From an uncultured Prochlorococcus sp. (lineage in GTDB: Bacteria > Cyanobacteriota > Cyanobacteriia > PCC-6307 > Cyanobiaceae): a stretch of DNA of 39,355 bases. The stretch is from NCBI GenBank assembly GCA_902624085.1, contig CACNWD010000011.1, forward strand, positions 1 to 39,355, written 5' to 3'. Below are positions 4,390-26,924 of the stretch, piece by piece. Within the stretch, counting starts at the first letter, position 1. Every line of letters begins with the position of its first letter. The notes beneath the pieces are model-generated. The model did no database searches, was not told the origin of the DNA, and saw only the letters and a list, made by a program, of their open reading frames with translations. The translations under genes and the position numbers were made by a program.

Positions 4390-5043
4390 CTAGTTGTCAT
4401 TTTTTATAACTTTGTCAATTAATCCGTAATTGACTGCTTCATAGGGAGATAAGAAATAATCTCTTTCTGTATCCTCCACTATCTTTTCAAGAGGTTGACC
4501 AGTATGCTCAGATAATAATTTATTCAAAGTTTCTTTCAGATATAAAATTTCTTTCGCTTGAATTTCTATCTCAACTGCTTGTCCTTGAGCTCCCCCGAGT
4601 GGCTGATGAATCATAATCCTCGAGTTTGGGAGTGCTAATCTTTTACCTTTGGTACCACCTGACAATAAAAAGGCACCCATGCTTGCAGCAACTCCAAAGC
4701 AAATGGTGACAATGTCTGGAGATATTTGTTGCATAGTATCATAAATTGCTAACCCTGCAGTGACGGAACCACCTGGGGAATTTATATAAACCTGTATGTC
4801 TTTAGTGGGATCTTCTGCTTCTAAAAATAGTAATTGTGCGACTAAAGAATCAGACACTTGATCATTTACTTCAGTTCCTAAAAATATGATTCTCTCTCTT
4901 AATAATCTTGAATAAATATCAAAAGCTCTTTCACCTCTACCAGATTGTTCGATAACAGTTGGTAAAGCACCTTTAACGCTATTTTTTGAAAATTTTGATT
5001 TATAGATATTGGAAAATTGATGATGTCTTATTGATTGGATCAA
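4390..5043 (-). CDS. clpP: ATP-dependent Clp protease proteolytic subunit (ClpX-linked paralog)
   Basis: Serine peptidase that forms the proteolytic barrel under ClpX. The catalytic triad is visible: S121 in ASMGAF, H146 in MIHQPLGG, D195 in TERDYF. The region from about residue 30 ([19 protein letters not shown]) matches the ClpP mature N-terminus, so residues 1-25 are probably a propeptide. The start used is a TTG at 5041-5043 with no clear Shine-Dalgarno, so the exact N-terminus is uncertain; no in-frame ATG is available before the conserved core. Cyanobacteria carry several ClpP paralogs; the clpX-adjacent one is usually called clpP2, which I infer from position only. Confidence 0.94.
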
Positions 5044-21671: not shown

Positions 21672-21743
21672 GCGGATGTAGCTCAGTGGTAGAGCATCTC
21701 CTTGCCAAGGAGAATGTCGAGAGTTCGAATCTCTTCATCCGCT
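21672..21743 (+). tRNA. tRNA-Gly (anticodon GCC)
   Basis: A complete 72-nt cloverleaf without encoded CCA. The acceptor stem pairs GCGGATG with CATCCGC and is followed by discriminator T. The D-arm is GCTCAGTGGTAGAGC, the anticodon stem-loop TCTCC-TTGCCAA-GGAGA has GCC at 21704-21706, and the T-arm is GAGAG-TTCGAAT-CTCTT. A possible -10 element (TATTAT, 21657-21662) lies just upstream. Its last 15 bases recur exactly at 26427-26441, so it marks the left border of the variable island. Confidence 0.97.
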
Positions 21744-21748
21744 CTCTT

Positions 21749-21773
21749 AAAACCTTATATATGAAGAGGTTTT
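21749..21773 (+). terminator. Weak hairpin after tRNA-Gly, possible terminator
   Basis: AAAACCT (21749-21755) can pair with AGGTTTT (21767-21773) around an 11-base loop. The descending arm runs into a short T stretch. It lies 5 bases after the tRNA. The ATG of the next small ORF (21761) is in the loop, so the structure may instead control that ORF. The stem is mostly A-T and the prediction is weak. Confidence 0.3.
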
Positions 21774-21967
21774 TAATTCATTGGGATAAACCTAAAATAA
21801 ATATTGGTAATTATTGGCTAGTGAATAAAATCGATTTTGCAATAGAATTGTCACTAATGGCACTTAACAAGAGGGCAAGCAGAACAAGATATTCATGGGA
21901 ATTGTTAGTAATAAAACAAATTAGTGCAAGGTTTAGGGCAAAACAGCAAAAATTTGTTTATGGCTAA
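21761..21967 (+). CDS. Small basic hypothetical protein
   Basis: A 68-aa ORF beginning MKRFLIHWDKPK and ending AKQQKFVYG. It is rich in Lys and Arg, with a probable helical stretch in the middle (DFAIELSLMALNKRASR) and a second amphipathic stretch (ELLVIKQISARFRAKQQK). The composition looks like a genuine protein rather than a random AT-rich frame, but I do not recognise the family. The frame extends upstream into the tRNA; I use the first ATG after it. It is the first ORF in the island, 17 bp after tRNA-Gly. Confidence 0.5.
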   Translation: MKRFLIHWDKPKINIGNYWLVNKIDFAIELSLMALNKRASRTRYSWELLVIKQISARFRAKQQKFVYG

Positions 21968-22496
21968 TCTAAATTAGAGTACATAACAACCTTTTTTTTA
22001 ATGGTAAATTATTCATATCTTTATAAGCAGCTATCGTTTTGCCTACTGGAGTTGATGCAAATGTAGATTCAGAAGTTCATAAGAAATTTTAATAAGCATG
22101 AGATTATGTAGGTTTCGTGAATACTAATAAAAAATTTTCTTGCAAAAAAGATAAATAAATATCTGGAATAGGAACAAGGCTGTTTCTCTAATGAAAGGAC
22201 CAATAGATAAACCAATTAAATTAGTCTTTTTAGAGTTTATGAGTCAGGTGAAAAGGAGAAAATAAATGTAAATTTAGTAAGAAATACTTTTAAATTCACT
22301 TTTAAAGACTTTATATATAAATTTGATTTAAAAGTAAAAATTTGCAATGTAAATTCTAAATTGAAGGCGTAATATTCAGAAAATAATTCTTGATTTTTGA
22401 TTAATTAATTGAATCCGTATACTTCAGAAAACTTTACATTATGTTTGTATATATCAAATATATATGTTATTAATTTATTCCTGAACTTAAAAAGCC
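21968..22496. other. Gene-poor island segment with possible decayed coding fragments
   Basis: No intact gene is seen in 529 bp. One plus-strand frame (22027-22158) gives two protein-like stretches separated by stops: IVLPTGVDANVDSEVHKKF and DYVGFVNTNKKFSCKKDK. A 24-codon ORF starting with ATG lies at 22191-22265. These read like remnants of one or two lost genes, but I cannot name them. Confidence 0.35.
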
Positions 22497-22688
22497 ATGA
22501 ACAATAAATCATCTAATATACCTCAACGCAAAACTACTCTTAAGTGGAATAGAAATGGAGAATTATCTTCTATTGATATGGCAAGAATAATTAATGCTCT
22601 TTCAGTCCCAGAATTAAGAGAATGTGAGCTTGCATGTAAAAGAGTTATCAGAAAAAAACAAGTTTTAAATCTTAGTATGTGGCGGTAA
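22497..22688 (+). CDS. Small hypothetical protein
   Basis: A 63-aa ORF with an ATG start, basic overall. The C-terminal half (SIDMARIINALSVPELRE and CELACKRVIRKKQ) looks like two helices with coding-like composition; two cysteines (C41 and C45 in ECELACKR) are four residues apart. There is no signal peptide or membrane segment, and I recognise no known family. It is isolated, with over 170 bp of apparently non-coding DNA on both sides. Confidence 0.5.
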   Translation: MNNKSSNIPQRKTTLKWNRNGELSSIDMARIINALSVPELRECELACKRVIRKKQVLNLSMWR

Positions 22689-22864
22689 TAGTTGAGGTTA
22701 TAGCTTAAGAAAAAGATTATTTCATCTTAATTAAATATGGTTTATTTGGTTGGTAGCATATCCAAACCTTTAAAGCATAAGTTTGAAGATTTATAGAGAG
22801 TAGAGCGAGTGAAGAGCAACTTAAAAATATGGTTTTTAATTTATAAATTATTTTGATCTAGAAA

Positions 22865-23116
22865 TTAATTAATATCAAGAAGCTTTTTTTCTTCTGCTTT
22901 TAAAGGTCTTCCTTCCTTAAACTTTTTAATAGCCTGGTTTTTTTTAAATATAAGCTTAATTTTTTCCTTTATGGCTTTTCTCTTTGCTTTGGCCTTTGGC
23001 GAATTCCCACTACTGCCACCACTGCCGCCGCCGCTATAAGAAATTAAAAGATTACTATTTTTATAACTATTATTAATTTGATTATTCGAAGTAATTATTA
23101 ATGTATTGATATTCAA
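22865..23116 (-). CDS. Small cationic protein with Gly/Ser linker, possibly secreted
   Basis: The visible ORF (83 codons) starts at a TTG (23114-23116). A Gly/Ser-rich linker (YSGGGSGGSSGNSP) is followed by a strongly basic, helix-prone C-terminal domain (KAKAKRKAIKEKIKLIFKKN, then AIKKFKEGRPLKAEEKKLL). The frame stays open upstream of the TTG to 23085-23190 and encodes a Lys plus hydrophobic stretch (CCISYLLITLFIPL) that resembles a signal peptide, but without an ATG or GTG. So the real start may be a rare codon, or the 5' end may be damaged. Family and function are not recognised. Confidence 0.45.
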   Translation of the reverse strand: MNINTLIITSNNQINNSYKNSNLLISYSGGGSGGSSGNSPKAKAKRKAIKEKIKLIFKKNQAIKKFKEGRPLKAEEKKLLDIN

Positions 23117-23701
23117 AGGGATGAATAATGTAATTAGAAGATAGGAAATGCAGCAATTATTTTTATCATTTTGAATTAAAAATATCTACCATAGCAGTAA
23201 ATAAAAAAATATGACTACTTTTTTTAGGTCCAATTTAAAAAAGTATATTATTCAAAATTTATAAGCCAAAATATAAAGATAAAAGATCATTTAATAATAT
23301 TTAGATCTTAAGTTTTTCTAAGGTCCAATGAATTAATGTTAATTACTGAGAAAAATTCTTATCAAAATAAAGACTAATGCTTACTAGTTGATTAATTCAT
23401 ATAGGTAGGGTTTAGAAGCTTCATAAAAAATACTACTTTCAATATTGAAGACAAATTTTTTAAATAAATTTTAATTGATTCAAGTAAGATAGCTAAAACT
23501 CTTGATCATGCTTATCCAGATATATAAAGGAGAGAGGAATGAACATTAGAGGAGGCTTGAAAGAGTTGGAAAAATTAATATCACAAGGTTGGCTAAGAAT
23601 AGACTTATGTGATTCATAACCTTATGAGGGTTAGTGATTAACCTGCCAAAGTTATATAAGGCTATAAAAATAATCGCTTATGAAGATATTAGTTAGAAAA
23701 T
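23117..23701. other. Gene-poor island segment
   Basis: There is no intact gene in about 585 bp apart from the fragments listed separately at 23468-23619. The first 350 bp are very AT-rich with stops in all frames, and I see no RNA gene. The left end holds the hydrophobic upstream extension of the preceding small cationic protein. Confidence 0.4.
23468..23619 (+). pseudogene. Possible decayed gene fragment with a strong Shine-Dalgarno
   Basis: One frame from 23468 reads ILIDSSKIAKTLDHAYPDI, a stop, RREE, a stop, TLEEA, a stop, KSWKN: protein-like pieces broken by TAA and TGA codons. In a second frame an AAGGAG-AGAGGA Shine-Dalgarno-like sequence (23527-23538) precedes an ATG at 23539 and a 26-codon ORF (MNIRGGLKELEKLISQGW...) ending at 23619. 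Either this is a frameshifted pseudogene or the 26-codon ORF is a true micro-gene. I cannot identify a family. Confidence 0.3.
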
Positions 23702-24421
23702 CTATCTCAAAGCTCCATAGATAAATCTTCCAATAATTTCTCTAATTGCCTTAGAGCTTTTATTTAAAGAAGAGGAACTGGGTATCCAGCTTATTGGATT
23801 ACGTAATGAAGAAAAAAAACTTTTATTACTTTTAAAATCTACAGGATATGGTTGAACACTTATCCCCTCCCTCTCAAAAACTTTTTTTGCCCTTTTCATG
23901 TGAAAGGCACTTGTAACTAGAATAATTCTCGTTCTCTTATATGGGATTTCATTATTAAGTAATTTTTTAATTGCTTTAGCTTCCTGAAGAGTATTATTCA
24001 CAGGATATGTTGTAAATAAGTCTTCTTTTGGGAGCCCCATTGAAATAGCTTCCTTAATGTAGATATCTCCTTCTGGAGGTAAATTTGAAGTTAAAGGATT
24101 TATTCCTCCTGTAAAAATCAACCTGTTTGATTTATGCTCCTTATAAAGCTCTATTCCAGCAAGAAACCTATCTGGGTCGTGCCATTCAATTATTTTTGTA
24201 TTTCCGGGAGGCAAATGCCTTCCACCACTTAAAACAACTATCCCATCTGAGGGAGCAACTAAAGAATAATCTAATCTTTTCCAGGGATGTTCTAATAATC
24301 TCCACAAAATATCAGCAAATAATCCATTGCTAAAAATGATTAAGAAAATAATTGCTGAATAAATAAATTTAACTTTTTTTCTAAAAATAAAAACTAATAA
24401 TAAGGTTAAAATAATCCCCAA
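23702..24421 (-). CDS. DUF218 (YdcF/ElyC-like) membrane-anchored protein
   Basis: The YdcF/SanA/ElyC family is linked to envelope maintenance in enterobacteria; no reaction is established. After two N-terminal hydrophobic helices (about residues 2-12 and 20-36) comes the DUF218 core: DGIVVLSGG at 59-67, RLIFTGG, the conserved NTLQEAKAI segment, and ILVTSAFHMKRAKKVF with a conserved His. The start used is TTG at 24421. The frame continues about 18 codons upstream and encodes a family-like hydrophobic stretch (YLLSKLLPLIFSPLG) with no standard start codon, so the N-terminus may be damaged or use a rare initiator. It lies inside the island. Confidence 0.72.
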   Translation of the reverse strand: MGIILTLLLVFIFRKKVKFIYSAIIFLIIFSNGLFADILWRLLEHPWKRLDYSLVAPSDGIVVLSGGRHLPPGNTKIIEWHDPDRFLAGIELYKEHKSNRLIFTGGINPLTSNLPPEGDIYIKEAISMGLPKEDLFTTYPVNNTLQEAKAIKKLLNNEIPYKRTRIILVTSAFHMKRAKKVFEREGISVQPYPVDFKSNKSFFSSLRNPISWIPSSSSLNKSSKAIREIIGRFIYGALR

Positions 24422-24738
24422 CGGAGAGAAAATTAAAGGTAATAATTTGCTAAGTAAGTACGTATCTAAAAATATTATCTAAATTTATCCTAATGTAATA
24501 AATTATCTGTTTTCAAAAATATGTTTAATTCAACAGACCTAAGTTATACAAAGCTATCCAAATAAACTCTAGAAGAAATATTGCGAATGCTGACAAGTTA
24601 ATCGGAGCGACATGCTTGGAACCTGTGATCTAGCGCTCTTAAAGGGAAAAACCTATAAAGATACAATATATTTTATTTACAAAAAATCTTGATTAGTCCA
24701 AAGTATTTTTTAAACTTTTAAAAATTTGATAAGTATTA
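24422..24738. other. Intergenic island segment holding a tRNA-like remnant
   Basis: There is no protein gene in 317 bp. It contains the upstream open extension of the DUF218 gene (to 24478) and the tRNA-like 3' half on the minus strand at 24602-24643. Nothing else is recognisable. Confidence 0.5.
24602..24643 (-). pseudogene. tRNA 3'-half remnant (identity uncertain)
   Basis: Read on the minus strand, this has the order anticodon loop TTTAAGA, stem arm GCGCT, a short variable loop, T-arm ACAGG-TTCCAAG-CATGT (four of five pairs intact) and acceptor arm CGCTCCGA. The matching 5' half is absent. The loop would give anticodon UAA, but the short variable region is unlike tRNA-Leu, so the original tRNA is unclear. 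It lies between the methyltransferase and DUF218 genes, both minus strand. Similar halves of tRNA-Pro and tRNA-Gly lie further right, suggesting an old attachment site. Confidence 0.5.
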
Positions 24739-25539
24739 TTAAAAGTTTTTGTTCATTTCTTTTTTTAATAGTATCCACGCGATGACAGGATAATCTTTTT
24801 TCCCATAATACCAAATCGATTGAAAATTATATTTTATTTTATGATAAAAATATTTTATAAAACCTTTTAAATTGAAATTTTTTGATGAAATGTAAATATT
24901 ATCTATCAAATCTCCTGAAGAGACTAATGGTGTCCAGTCGATTACTGAATACATACTTACAGCTTTTTTTGATCCCCAATATTCACAGTCGATTATTTCA
25001 TATCCCCCAGATTTATTTGCAAGATAAGATAACATTCTTTTATGATAACCAGCTGTAAAATAATATGGTTCTGTATGTATTCCATTAATACATGGAACGG
25101 AAATATGGAGAATACCTCCCTCTTTGAGAAGATATTTTAAATTATCTATTGCAATTTGAGGATCTGGAATATGTTCAAAAACTTGTTCACAAAGTATTAG
25201 GTCATATTTATTATGATATTCAGAATATTGATTTTCACTCCAATTCAAACCCAAGTCCCAAAATTGATGTTCTCCAGGTTTAATATGTTCATCGAAACAT
25301 AAGCATTCAACCGAAGCATTACTAAAAAAAATTAATTCTGGTTCTGAGAGATTTCCTGAAATCACAGCGATATTTATATGATCTTTGAAAGAAAAAGTTC
25401 CTATTTCCGACAATAAATCATAAAATCTCACAAGAGAAATTATTCTTGCAGGATCGTTTTTAACCAGCATTTTGTACAAACGTGGATCATCTATATTTTT
25501 AATTTTTGAATAAAGTTCTTTTCTATTAATTTTGAACAT
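24739..25539 (-). CDS. SAM-dependent methyltransferase (Methyltransf_23-like)
   Basis: A class I methyltransferase of the kind found with surface-polysaccharide genes; substrate unknown. The best motif is DLILCEQVFEHIPDP at residues 113-127 (motif II/post-II region), followed by LKEGGILHISVPC (motif III region). The glycine-rich motif I is poor: around residues 57-63 it reads IAVISGN instead of the usual D/E-x-G-x-G-x-G, so SAM binding may be altered. The start is ATG at 25539. A Lys/Tyr-rich C-terminal tail may sit near membranes. It is an island gene flanked by two tRNA remnants. Confidence 0.75.
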   Translation of the reverse strand: MFKINRKELYSKIKNIDDPRLYKMLVKNDPARIISLVRFYDLLSEIGTFSFKDHINIAVISGNLSEPELIFFSNASVECLCFDEHIKPGEHQFWDLGLNWSENQYSEYHNKYDLILCEQVFEHIPDPQIAIDNLKYLLKEGGILHISVPCINGIHTEPYYFTAGYHKRMLSYLANKSGGYEIIDCEYWGSKKAVSMYSVIDWTPLVSSGDLIDNIYISSKNFNLKGFIKYFYHKIKYNFQSIWYYGKKDYPVIAWILLKKEMNKNF

Positions 25540-25721
25540 ACTTACGTTAAACCAGTTTTATTGAAATTTATATTGAAAAACAACTAGGTTTCCCTAATCA
25601 ATTACTTTAACCTAATTATTGTCTCAATTATTATTCTTTAATAAAAACAGCTGCAATTCTATAGAGGGTAAGACTTTTTGATGGAAACATATTATTAGCT
25701 AAGACTTACTGCTATAACTTA
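25540..25721. other. Non-coding stretch upstream of the methyltransferase gene
   Basis: It is AT-rich with stops in all frames. It lies between the methyltransferase start and the tRNA-Pro remnant and presumably holds the methyltransferase promoter on the minus strand; I see no convincing -10/-35 pair. The stretch from here to 26492 holds no intact gene, only the remnants listed separately. Confidence 0.4.
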
Positions 25722-25770
25722 TCGGGGGAGAGAGGATTCGAACCTGAGATCTAGTGTTCCCAAAACACCC
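25722..25770 (-). pseudogene. tRNA-Pro (UGG) 3'-half remnant
   Basis: On the minus strand the segment reads anticodon stem GGTGT, loop TTTGGGA (anticodon UGG), stem ACACT, variable loop, T-arm with intact TTCGAAT loop flanked by CAGG and CCT, and acceptor strand CTCCCCCGA. The stem has four Watson-Crick pairs and one G-T. The upstream (5') half is not tRNA-like: no D-arm or 5' acceptor strand. It starts 4 bases after the stop of the decayed HTH gene. This is the shape left when an element integrates into the 3' half of a tRNA gene. Confidence 0.75.
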
Positions 25771-25773
25771 TGT

Positions 25774-26116
25774 CTAACTTTTTATTTTTGCTTCTAATCC
25801 AATATATTTCATCAGAATTAGTGCATGACTTACAACTCCAGAATGTTGTTTTCCCTTGAATAGCTGTATGCATTGCAGTTTCAAAAATATAAATTAATTT
25901 TTGCAGTCATTTCTGGACGATTTAAGTCCACTTCCTATATCGTTTTTATAGTAAGTTGAAAGTATTGGAGATGATTTGCCTAGCTCTTCTAGTTGATATT
26001 CCATATTTCGCTGTAAAGAGGCTAGTGAATGAACAATATGCCTGCCTTTCGGTAACTAATTCAGCAGTATGAGCAATCCTTAATTCGCTTTCTTGTTTAG
26101 TCATTTTTTTCGGCAT
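25774..26116 (-). pseudogene. Decayed small HTH protein, possibly phage small-terminase-like
   Basis: Frame 0 from the ATG at 26116 encodes MPKKMTKQESELRIAHTAELV and a helix-turn-helix-like segment, YGISTRRARQIIS, ending at TAA after 56 codons. The protein-like signal then hops frames: YKNDIGSG (+1), LNRPEMTAK (+2), KLIYIFETAMHTAIQG (frame 0 again), and SGVVSHALILMKYIGLEAKIKS (+1), ending at a TAG at 25774-25776. Together these give about 112 residues of plausible all-helical protein broken by at least four indels. An N-terminal HTH plus a helical C-terminus resembles small terminase or excision/regulatory proteins of phages and satellites. The pseudogene call is good; the family is a guess. 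Confidence 0.55.
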
Positions 26117-26365
26117 AACTTCAACAAATACTAATAACATAGGGAATTGCGATTATAAATCTATTGCCATTATTGCCGTCTTCCATTCGCTGGGGAAGTT
26201 TGCATTCACCTTTTAATTAATAATTAATGTCTTATTTATACTAATAAAAGTGGTGTAAACCTATTTTGTAAAACTACTATTATTCTATGTATAGTAAAAA
26301 ACTTATTCTGAACTTATAACTGCACTGTTTCATTAATATTTAGTAAGAATTAACATAAAAGCATT

Positions 26366-26391
26366 GCTATGACTTATGTTTGAAGCATAGC
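26366..26391. repeat. Imperfect inverted repeat beside the tRNA-Gly remnant
   Basis: GCTATG-a-CTT (26366-26375) is complementary to AAGCATAGC (26383-26391) with one bulged A and a 7-base loop, giving nine pairs. It ends 4 bases before the tRNA-Gly 3'-half copy. It could be a recombinase-binding arm, a remnant of the element end, or chance. Confidence 0.35.
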
Positions 26392-26395
26392 TAAG

Positions 26396-26441
26396 CCCTT
26401 GGTCAAGGGGAATGATGAGAGTTTGCATCTCTTCATCCGCT
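26396..26441 (+). repeat. tRNA-Gly 3'-half copy, right border of the island
   Basis: Aligned with the intact tRNA-Gly, about 38 of 45 positions match from the anticodon stem onward, with one inserted base. The last 15 bases, ATCTCTTCATCCGCT (26427-26441), are identical to 21729-21743 and end at the same base as the tRNA. The 5' half is missing and the anticodon loop is mutated, so it is not a functional tRNA. As a direct repeat bounding 4.7 kb it looks like an old attachment site. Confidence 0.8.
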
Positions 26442-26492
26442 TCTAAAATTTAATTAATTTATCTATTATGAATTAATGATTATTTTTTAAGT

Positions 26493-26924
26493 ATGGATAG
26501 GAGCATTACAGAAGGAGAATTACAAAAATTATTTACTAAACCTTATGGAGGGGAAGCGCCATCCAAAAATGTATGGGCCTCCTATTATGAAGAAGATGTT
26601 GTGTTTATCGATCCTACCCAAGAAAAATATGGATTAGATGCATATATTGAAGCTCAGGAAAATCTTATTAAGCGATGCAAAGATGTCTACTTAGAAACAC
26701 ATGCGGTTGCAATTAATCAAAATATTGGTTTTGTGGAGTGGACAATGGGTTTAAAAATTCTCAATAAGGAATTTATATATCCAGGGACAACTAGGTTAAC
26801 TTTCGGTGAAAGCGGTAAAATAAAAGAGCATAGAGATTATTTTGACTTTTGTGGACCAACTTTTGCTCCTGTTCCAGTATTAGGTAATTTTATTAGATGG
26901 CTTTATGGCATCTTTGTTAGTTAA
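26493..26924 (+). CDS. NTF2-like / SnoaL-like domain protein
   Basis: A 143-aa cytoplasmic protein. The pattern VWASYYEEDVVFIDPTQ near residues 27-43, GLDAYIEAQENL, then alternating strands (FVEWTMGLKI, TRLTFGESGKIKEHRDYFD) fits the cone-shaped NTF2/SnoaL fold; the HRDYFD end is typical of its last strand. Members include isomerases and ligand-binding proteins, and no specific role can be read here. It is the first gene right of the island border. It overlaps the following GtrA-like gene by 20 bp, suggesting translational coupling. Confidence 0.72.
   Translation: MDRSITEGELQKLFTKPYGGEAPSKNVWASYYEEDVVFIDPTQEKYGLDAYIEAQENLIKRCKDVYLETHAVAINQNIGFVEWTMGLKILNKEFIYPGTTRLTFGESGKIKEHRDYFDFCGPTFAPVPVLGNFIRWLYGIFVS

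Follow-up and report, generated by a model that had tools for sequence, protein, structure and literature searches.

Nutrient genes differ greatly between Prochlorococcus cells. The mobile elements of this genus known as tycheposons were reportedly described by Hackl et al. in Cell in 2023. Canonical mechanisms of gene transfer are reportedly absent from Prochlorococcus (PMC10654061). In the accessible parts of four papers that cite tycheposons, these elements target tRNA genes, encode a tyrosine recombinase, leave displaced tRNA ends, carry nutrient cargo and include proposed phage-satellite members (PMC10872708, PMC10803314, PMC11389934, PMC10187409). Additive flexible genomic islands of Methylophilaceae contain repeats of a tRNA-Lys end (PMC10872708), and tRNA-targeted cassettes are described in Alteromonas (PMC4119200). 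The phage satellites called PICMIs lack terS according to PMC10803314, where the authors list terS among the packaging-redirecting genes of other satellites.

A decayed tRNA-Gly island

Tycheposons are the closest described family to an island at positions 21672 to 26441 of the window, the whole 39,355-nucleotide stretch of Prochlorococcus DNA analysed here, which comes from a genome that is 68% complete (Table 1). As in tycheposons, the island is inserted at a tRNA gene and bounded by a displaced tRNA 3' end; it differs from them in the absence of a tyrosine recombinase, no match to which was left in the island in blastn comparison with related loci. Because it lacks this enzyme, we class it as a decayed remnant rather than as a member of the family.

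The end of the island and its displaced tRNA-Gly half match loci L064 and L105, and the genes on its recombinase side match L105 and L108; we therefore read the island as the decayed form of a tycheposon-like element of tRNA-Gly that has lost its recombinase. L105, L064 and L087 represent the same end of the same tRNA-Gly/secA island, and L105 is an intact copy, headed by the same tRNA-Gly(GCC), that keeps its recombinase. Window positions 25710 to 26906 align at 69 to 71% with the ends of L064 and L105, across the tRNA-Gly half and the outer SnoaL-like gene, and L087 matches the island end in two blocks; the SnoaL-like flank is common to all three. At the equivalent position the tRNA-Gly half is 100% identical in L105 and L064. 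Among the cargo, the DUF218 gene has 81% nucleotide identity to positions 4907 to 5765 of L081, another TerS-bearing locus, and the methyltransferase gene occupies a unit of 1,080 bp between two tRNA-Pro halves.

Table 1. Features of the island and its flank in the window.
Feature	Position	Strand	Evidence
Intact tRNA-Gly(GCC), integrase-side end of island	21672..21744	+	ARAGORN; Rfam tRNA 74.7 bits
Remnants of small genes near the recombinase in L105/L108	21874..22688	+	blastn patches, 76-81% to L105, L108, L089
DUF218-domain gene, cargo	23702..24421	-	PF02698 3.1e-26
Second, more eroded tRNA-Pro(UGG) 3' half (positions 32-74)	24602..24644	-	79%, E 1.4e-5 (computed within the window)
Methyltransferase gene, sole cargo gene between both Pro halves	24739..25539	-	PF13489 4.3e-9
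tRNA-Pro(UGG) 3' half (positions 27-72)	25725..25770	-	87% over 46 nt, E 1.5e-11 (computed within the window)
Decayed terS-like HTH gene	25774..26116	-	~75-80% nucleotide identity to intact terS-Pro modules
Displaced tRNA-Gly 3' half (positions 35-72), element's own attachment scar	26404..26441	+	87% over 38 nt
SnoaL-like gene, chromosomal flank outside element	26493..26924	+	PF12680 7.8e-10

A first-pass annotation of this DNA had reported a frameshifted helix-turn-helix (HTH) gene on the minus strand, followed directly by a tRNA-Pro(UGG) 3' half with no 5' half, and both observations stood. The gene starts with an ATG at 26116-26114, several frameshifts and in-frame stops interrupt its reading frame in alignment with homologs, and the final homologous frame closes with a TAG at 25776-25774; no tRNA-Pro 5' half was found anywhere in the window. 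That description of the junction was accurate as far as it went, and it omitted the second Pro half and the tRNA-Gly 3' half. It is the tRNA-Gly half, not the tRNA-Pro half, that is the element's own scar. Because this scar derives from the locus's own target, the HTH gene is native to the tRNA-Gly element, and the earlier suggestion of a second-hand or nested arrival is not supported. The Pro half beside the gene, together with about 20 bp past it, is 88% like cassette boundaries across the genus, and is an internal junction, presumably once a landing site of cassettes.

The window copy is a fossil: its terS, its two Pro halves and its tRNA-Gly scar are eroded, its recombinase is gone, and its terS has no close intact relative. 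The broken gene is a dead copy of what is probably a phage-packaging gene, carried at one end by many Prochlorococcus mobile elements. We call the protein TerS-like since no curated TerS profile from Pfam, NCBIfam or PHROGs matched its family.

tRNA-Pro halves, arrays and cassettes

Homologs of the window gene, searched for with its read-through translation, were present in 56 of 200 sampled genomes of the genus, the best about 53% identical, and a sample of 53 loci was analysed, all from Prochlorococcus genomes. As foreseen in the first-pass annotation, intact homologs adjoin tRNA-Pro(UGG) 3' halves, and some of these loci also carry a tyrosine recombinase. In roughly half of the 53 loci, across all target types, the stop codon of TerS is followed by a Pro half, as it is in the window and in both copies of genome G050 (1,780,061 bp); at least 21 terS copies have no Pro half at all. 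The two near-identical terS copies of G050 have an Ala neighbour in one case and a Gly neighbour in the other. The terS tree, most branches of which are weakly supported, groups copies with different targets, which suggests that the TerS-Pro module moves from one target type to another. The fused terS copies are under purifying selection (median dN/dS 0.16) and thus look like maintained genes rather than debris, the window copy being the exception.

A second type of 3' junction occurs in about 20 loci (L070, L073, L074, L076, L077, L078, L084, L088, L094, L097, L098, L102 and others), in which TerS terminates in ...TQIR and in most cases precedes a conserved sequence resembling TTACTTTTTATTAAAAATATAACTT.

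Fragments of tRNA-Pro are abundant beyond terS. An identical search, counting any intact gene, gave 3 to 18 matches per complete genome for the tRNA-Pro 3'-end pattern versus 1 to 3 for that of tRNA-Thr. In complete genomes the Pro halves form arrays headed by an intact tRNA-Pro, which is an integration hot spot. All 67 pairs of neighbouring Pro halves share one orientation, and the units between them have a median length of 2.1 kb. For 21 of the 67 units, other loci hold a counterpart of at least 75% identity, and several of these units stand behind both tRNA-Pro and TerS-Pro; one that does so carries GAPDH-like, transporter-like and PstS-like genes (named by inspection, without a profile search). 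A recombinase of the family found here, whose profile was built only from Prochlorococcus, is present in 4 of the 67. In L062, a TerS-Pro half and the next half enclose a unit of 7.7 kb that encodes a recombinase, an AAA_25 protein and another TerS-like protein.

In the flanks of 107 distinct tRNA-Pro halves from the fetched loci, the motifs TATAGC (about 5- to 9-fold over background) and AGTCTCA (about 11- to 14-fold) are enriched on both sides. The enrichment hints at recombinase arm sites, and shared descent of the flanks could produce the same pattern. A Pro half might possibly also act as a pac site or a tRNA-like terminator; the landing-pad role is the one that has direct support.

This support comes from G050, in which a 16.4-kb unit is present twice with zero mismatches over ~16.4 kb. 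One copy extends from the intact tRNA-Pro (~1,075,772) and the other from a TerS-Pro half (~1,306,564), and identity between them begins at the tRNA's shared GCGGGTGC. The unit encodes its own recombinase and, by inspection, nitrate assimilation-like and molybdenum-cofactor-like genes. Because such a pair is the expected trace of one element at two equivalent sites, we conclude that the TerS-Pro half can serve as an attachment site.

How the smaller units reached these docks admits a second account, to which we give an even chance: the arrays would be scars of successive insertions into tRNA-Pro whose recombinases were later lost, and homologous recombination would have spread them to TerS-Pro. 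Recombinases do persist in those four units, the halves and their flanks are repetitive enough for homologous recombination, and the sole clean transfer, in G050, brings its own recombinase. Against this, the units are small and of one orientation, and the same recombinase-less units stand behind different heads. Exchange of recombinase-less cassettes could proceed either by recombination in trans or by homologous recombination between the near-identical repeats and flanks.

The TerS-like protein and its place in mobile elements

Thirteen intact copies of the protein share 91 to 96% identity with the first of the set, and the intact family is 113 amino acids long. Its sole clear profile match is phrog_34910, a phage family of unknown function (E 8e-8); the read-through window protein itself gave nothing useful against PHROGs and Pfam, and searches of PDB sequences with the family gave no meaningful match. 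A more telling relative lies on an IMG/VR phage contig (L061; 40% over 43 amino acids, family profile 1.5e-5). On this single contig, from which the synteny argument is drawn, the gene, itself also a match to phrog_34910, sits directly 5' of terL (phrog_38, 2.3e-98), followed by portal, head morphogenesis and major head genes.

Two AlphaFold (AF2) models of the family are essentially all-helical with an N-terminal HTH. The second model, built from a more diverse alignment that included the phage protein, was compared with PDB chains by VIA-align, and the small terminases of G20c and P74-26 ranked 1, 2 and 5 with Z of 6.0 to 7.0, values below 8 for which the tool warns of a possibly mere common arrangement. 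The first model gave TetR-like chains on top and no terminase among the rows shown, and a Foldseek search of the PDB with it returned nothing below E 0.001. Taking gene order and predicted fold together, we consider the protein very probably a small terminase, as the first-pass annotation had guessed; such a protein would bind TerL and pac or cos DNA.

The alternative, a protein that regulates the element or serves as its excisionase, is unlikely in our judgement. The protein is short, has an HTH, matches no curated TerS profile and gives weak matches to sigma region 4 in profile searches, and TetR-like chains head the first structural comparison. However, its phage relative directly precedes terL, terminase structures head the second comparison, and intact elements have other small genes, close to the recombinase, that are candidates for DNA binding.

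Close relatives were sought among phages by several routes. A tblastn search of GenBank phages with four family members and relatives found no match, and a distant DNA search of phages gave short matches, the annotated ones mostly to tRNA-Pro genes. IMG/VR scans with distant relatives found none, nor any close relative on viral contigs, and a scan with the phage TerS returned that phage alone.

Two variants of the protein were observed. The longer relatives in L148 and L149 have a C-terminal tail of about 15 residues that is absent from the tRNA-Pro-fused copies. A second TerS-like subfamily, starting with M(A)xVSRAERKRRR, is represented in L157 (4077-4439), near tRNA-Ser(TGA), and in L062 (10050-10412), inside the unit nested on the TerS-Pro dock.

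Inspection of the 900 bp 5' of terS revealed a displaced tRNA half in 50 of the 53 loci (51 with a slightly laxer search), while random positions had one in a mean of 4 and a maximum of 11 loci over 1,000 trials. These halves are tRNA-Thr 3', tRNA-Ala 3', tRNA-Ala 5' or tRNA-Gly 3' halves, each with constant polarity, which makes terS the final gene of the recombinase-distal end, reading inward. The earlier view of the HTH gene as the terminal gene of a mobile element beside an attachment scar is borne out by this arrangement; tRNA-Pro as the element's target is not supported, the gene lying just inside halves of other tRNAs. In intact elements the recombinase, assigned by matches to Phage_integrase and phrog_1, adjoins tRNA-Gly, -Thr or -Ala. 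L155, for instance, runs within 6.8 kb from tRNA-Thr through genes for a recombinase, a VapE-like replication protein and a TerS-like protein to the displaced tRNA-Thr half. L148 opens with a tRNA-Ala 5' half and an operon whose last gene is TerS, and continues with an AAA_25 protein, a recombinase and tRNA-Ala.

Several further features of these ends were recorded. Compact elements encode proteins of unknown function ahead of TerS, of about 135 to 144 amino acids (L148 9101-9864, L149 9495-10237, L155 10369-10776) and, in L148 and L149, of 110 amino acids; they are possible packaging or capsid-redirection partners. Elements apparently use tRNA-Ala(GGC) from either side: 3' halves are left by some, and 5' halves of about positions 1-40 by others, which sit on the 5' side of the tRNA (the set comprises L148 8742-15188, L085, L062, L078, L084, L089 and L106). 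L085 (9360-12283) has recombinases on both flanks of one tRNA-Ala(GGC), the anticodon arm of which, TGCATGGCATGCA, is palindromic save for its central base. One TerS-Pro copy (L136 6175-6930; G050 ~1,692,174-1,692,929) lies ~345 bp downstream of the intact tRNA-Gly; its polarity is reversed, and its 5' side showed no displaced half.

With these positions in hand, the idea that a since-lost satellite targeting tRNA-Pro used the Pro half for attachment, with the HTH gene as its last gene and a nested or second-hand arrival at this locus, becomes very unlikely. The gene does adjoin a Pro half, and tRNA-Pro is a genuine hot spot; yet in 50 of 53 loci terS is tied to displaced Thr, Ala or Gly halves at the opposite end and reads away from them, those 21 or more copies do without a Pro half, and the recombinases of intact elements adjoin other tRNAs.

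That the tRNA-Pro resemblance and its placement beside the gene are coincidental has a negligible chance: the Rfam covariance model gives no match to the half, but over 25 other loci have this junction in an identical register, and the match in the window reaches E 1.5e-11. The covariance search that the first-pass annotation had named as a check thus came out formally against the Pro half, which the Rfam tRNA model did not report in either default or lenient (E ≤ 10) mode, and ARAGORN called only tRNA-Gly in the window. Such a miss is to be expected of a fragment whose T-stem is mismatched, and the homology of the half is secure by the recurrence of the junction.

A proposed landing site beside a probable packaging gene, compared with known systems

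The anatomy of these elements, its conservation, the purifying selection on fused terS and the identical element pair at tRNA-Pro and TerS-Pro are observations. We fit them to a model that we regard as likely, in which the window holds the decayed end of a tRNA-Gly tycheposon-like element and the TerS-Pro half is a landing site for cargo. In intact relatives a tyrosine recombinase sits beside the restored tRNA, with the displaced half and an inward-reading terS at the other end. In many of these elements, whichever tRNA is targeted, terS is joined at its 3' end to a tRNA-Pro(UGG) 3' half; this half would serve as a recombination site, so that elements of the tRNA-Pro type and cassettes may insert downstream of terS and become cargo of an element with a packaging gene. 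The TerS-like protein would mark the DNA of this element for packaging by a helper phage. Terminase function, the action of the recombinase on the Pro half and phage packaging are the steps that we infer.

A bolder extension, which we hold tentatively and think somewhat improbable, is an integron-like capture of genes in Prochlorococcus: Pro halves would play the part of attC, Pro-fused TerS genes would be mobile heads, and recombinase-less cassettes would be moved in trans onto TerS-tagged elements and so become packageable by phages.

If the model is true, packaging gene and cargo dock form one end module, mobile among tRNA-Gly, -Thr and -Ala elements, and this module offers a concrete way for cassettes of genomic islands to be transferred by phages. 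The numerous tRNA-Pro fragments of Prochlorococcus genomes would become readable as cassette boundaries, and the TerS-Pro boundary site may link gene capture with spread by phages.

Several known systems share parts of this organization. The one-directional, small and mostly recombinase-less cassettes of the Pro arrays, set between recombination sites, resemble those of integrons; the repeats, however, are tRNA-Pro 3' halves and not attC sites, and each array is headed by a tRNA or by terS. L155 and L148, unlike the window copy, resemble phage satellites (PICIs and PICMIs) in that 6 to 7 kb accommodate TerS, a recombinase and a gene for replication, VapE-like in L155, with no capsid genes; they differ from known satellites in having no known helper phage. 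Closer still in layout to the arrays are additive flexible genomic islands, with a tRNA head, direct repeats of a tRNA end and variable cassettes, and the tRNA-Pro-headed arrays of complete genomes show this same head and direct repeats between cassettes; unlike in those islands, the Prochlorococcus repeat is additionally joined to TerS genes within other mobile elements. The fusion of TerS with a tRNA-Pro half into a landing pad finds no mention in the accessible parts of the tycheposon-citing papers (PMC10872708, PMC10803314, PMC11389934, PMC10187409). The window is a remnant of a known kind; measured against those parts, a landing pad joined to TerS seems to be a variant not yet described.
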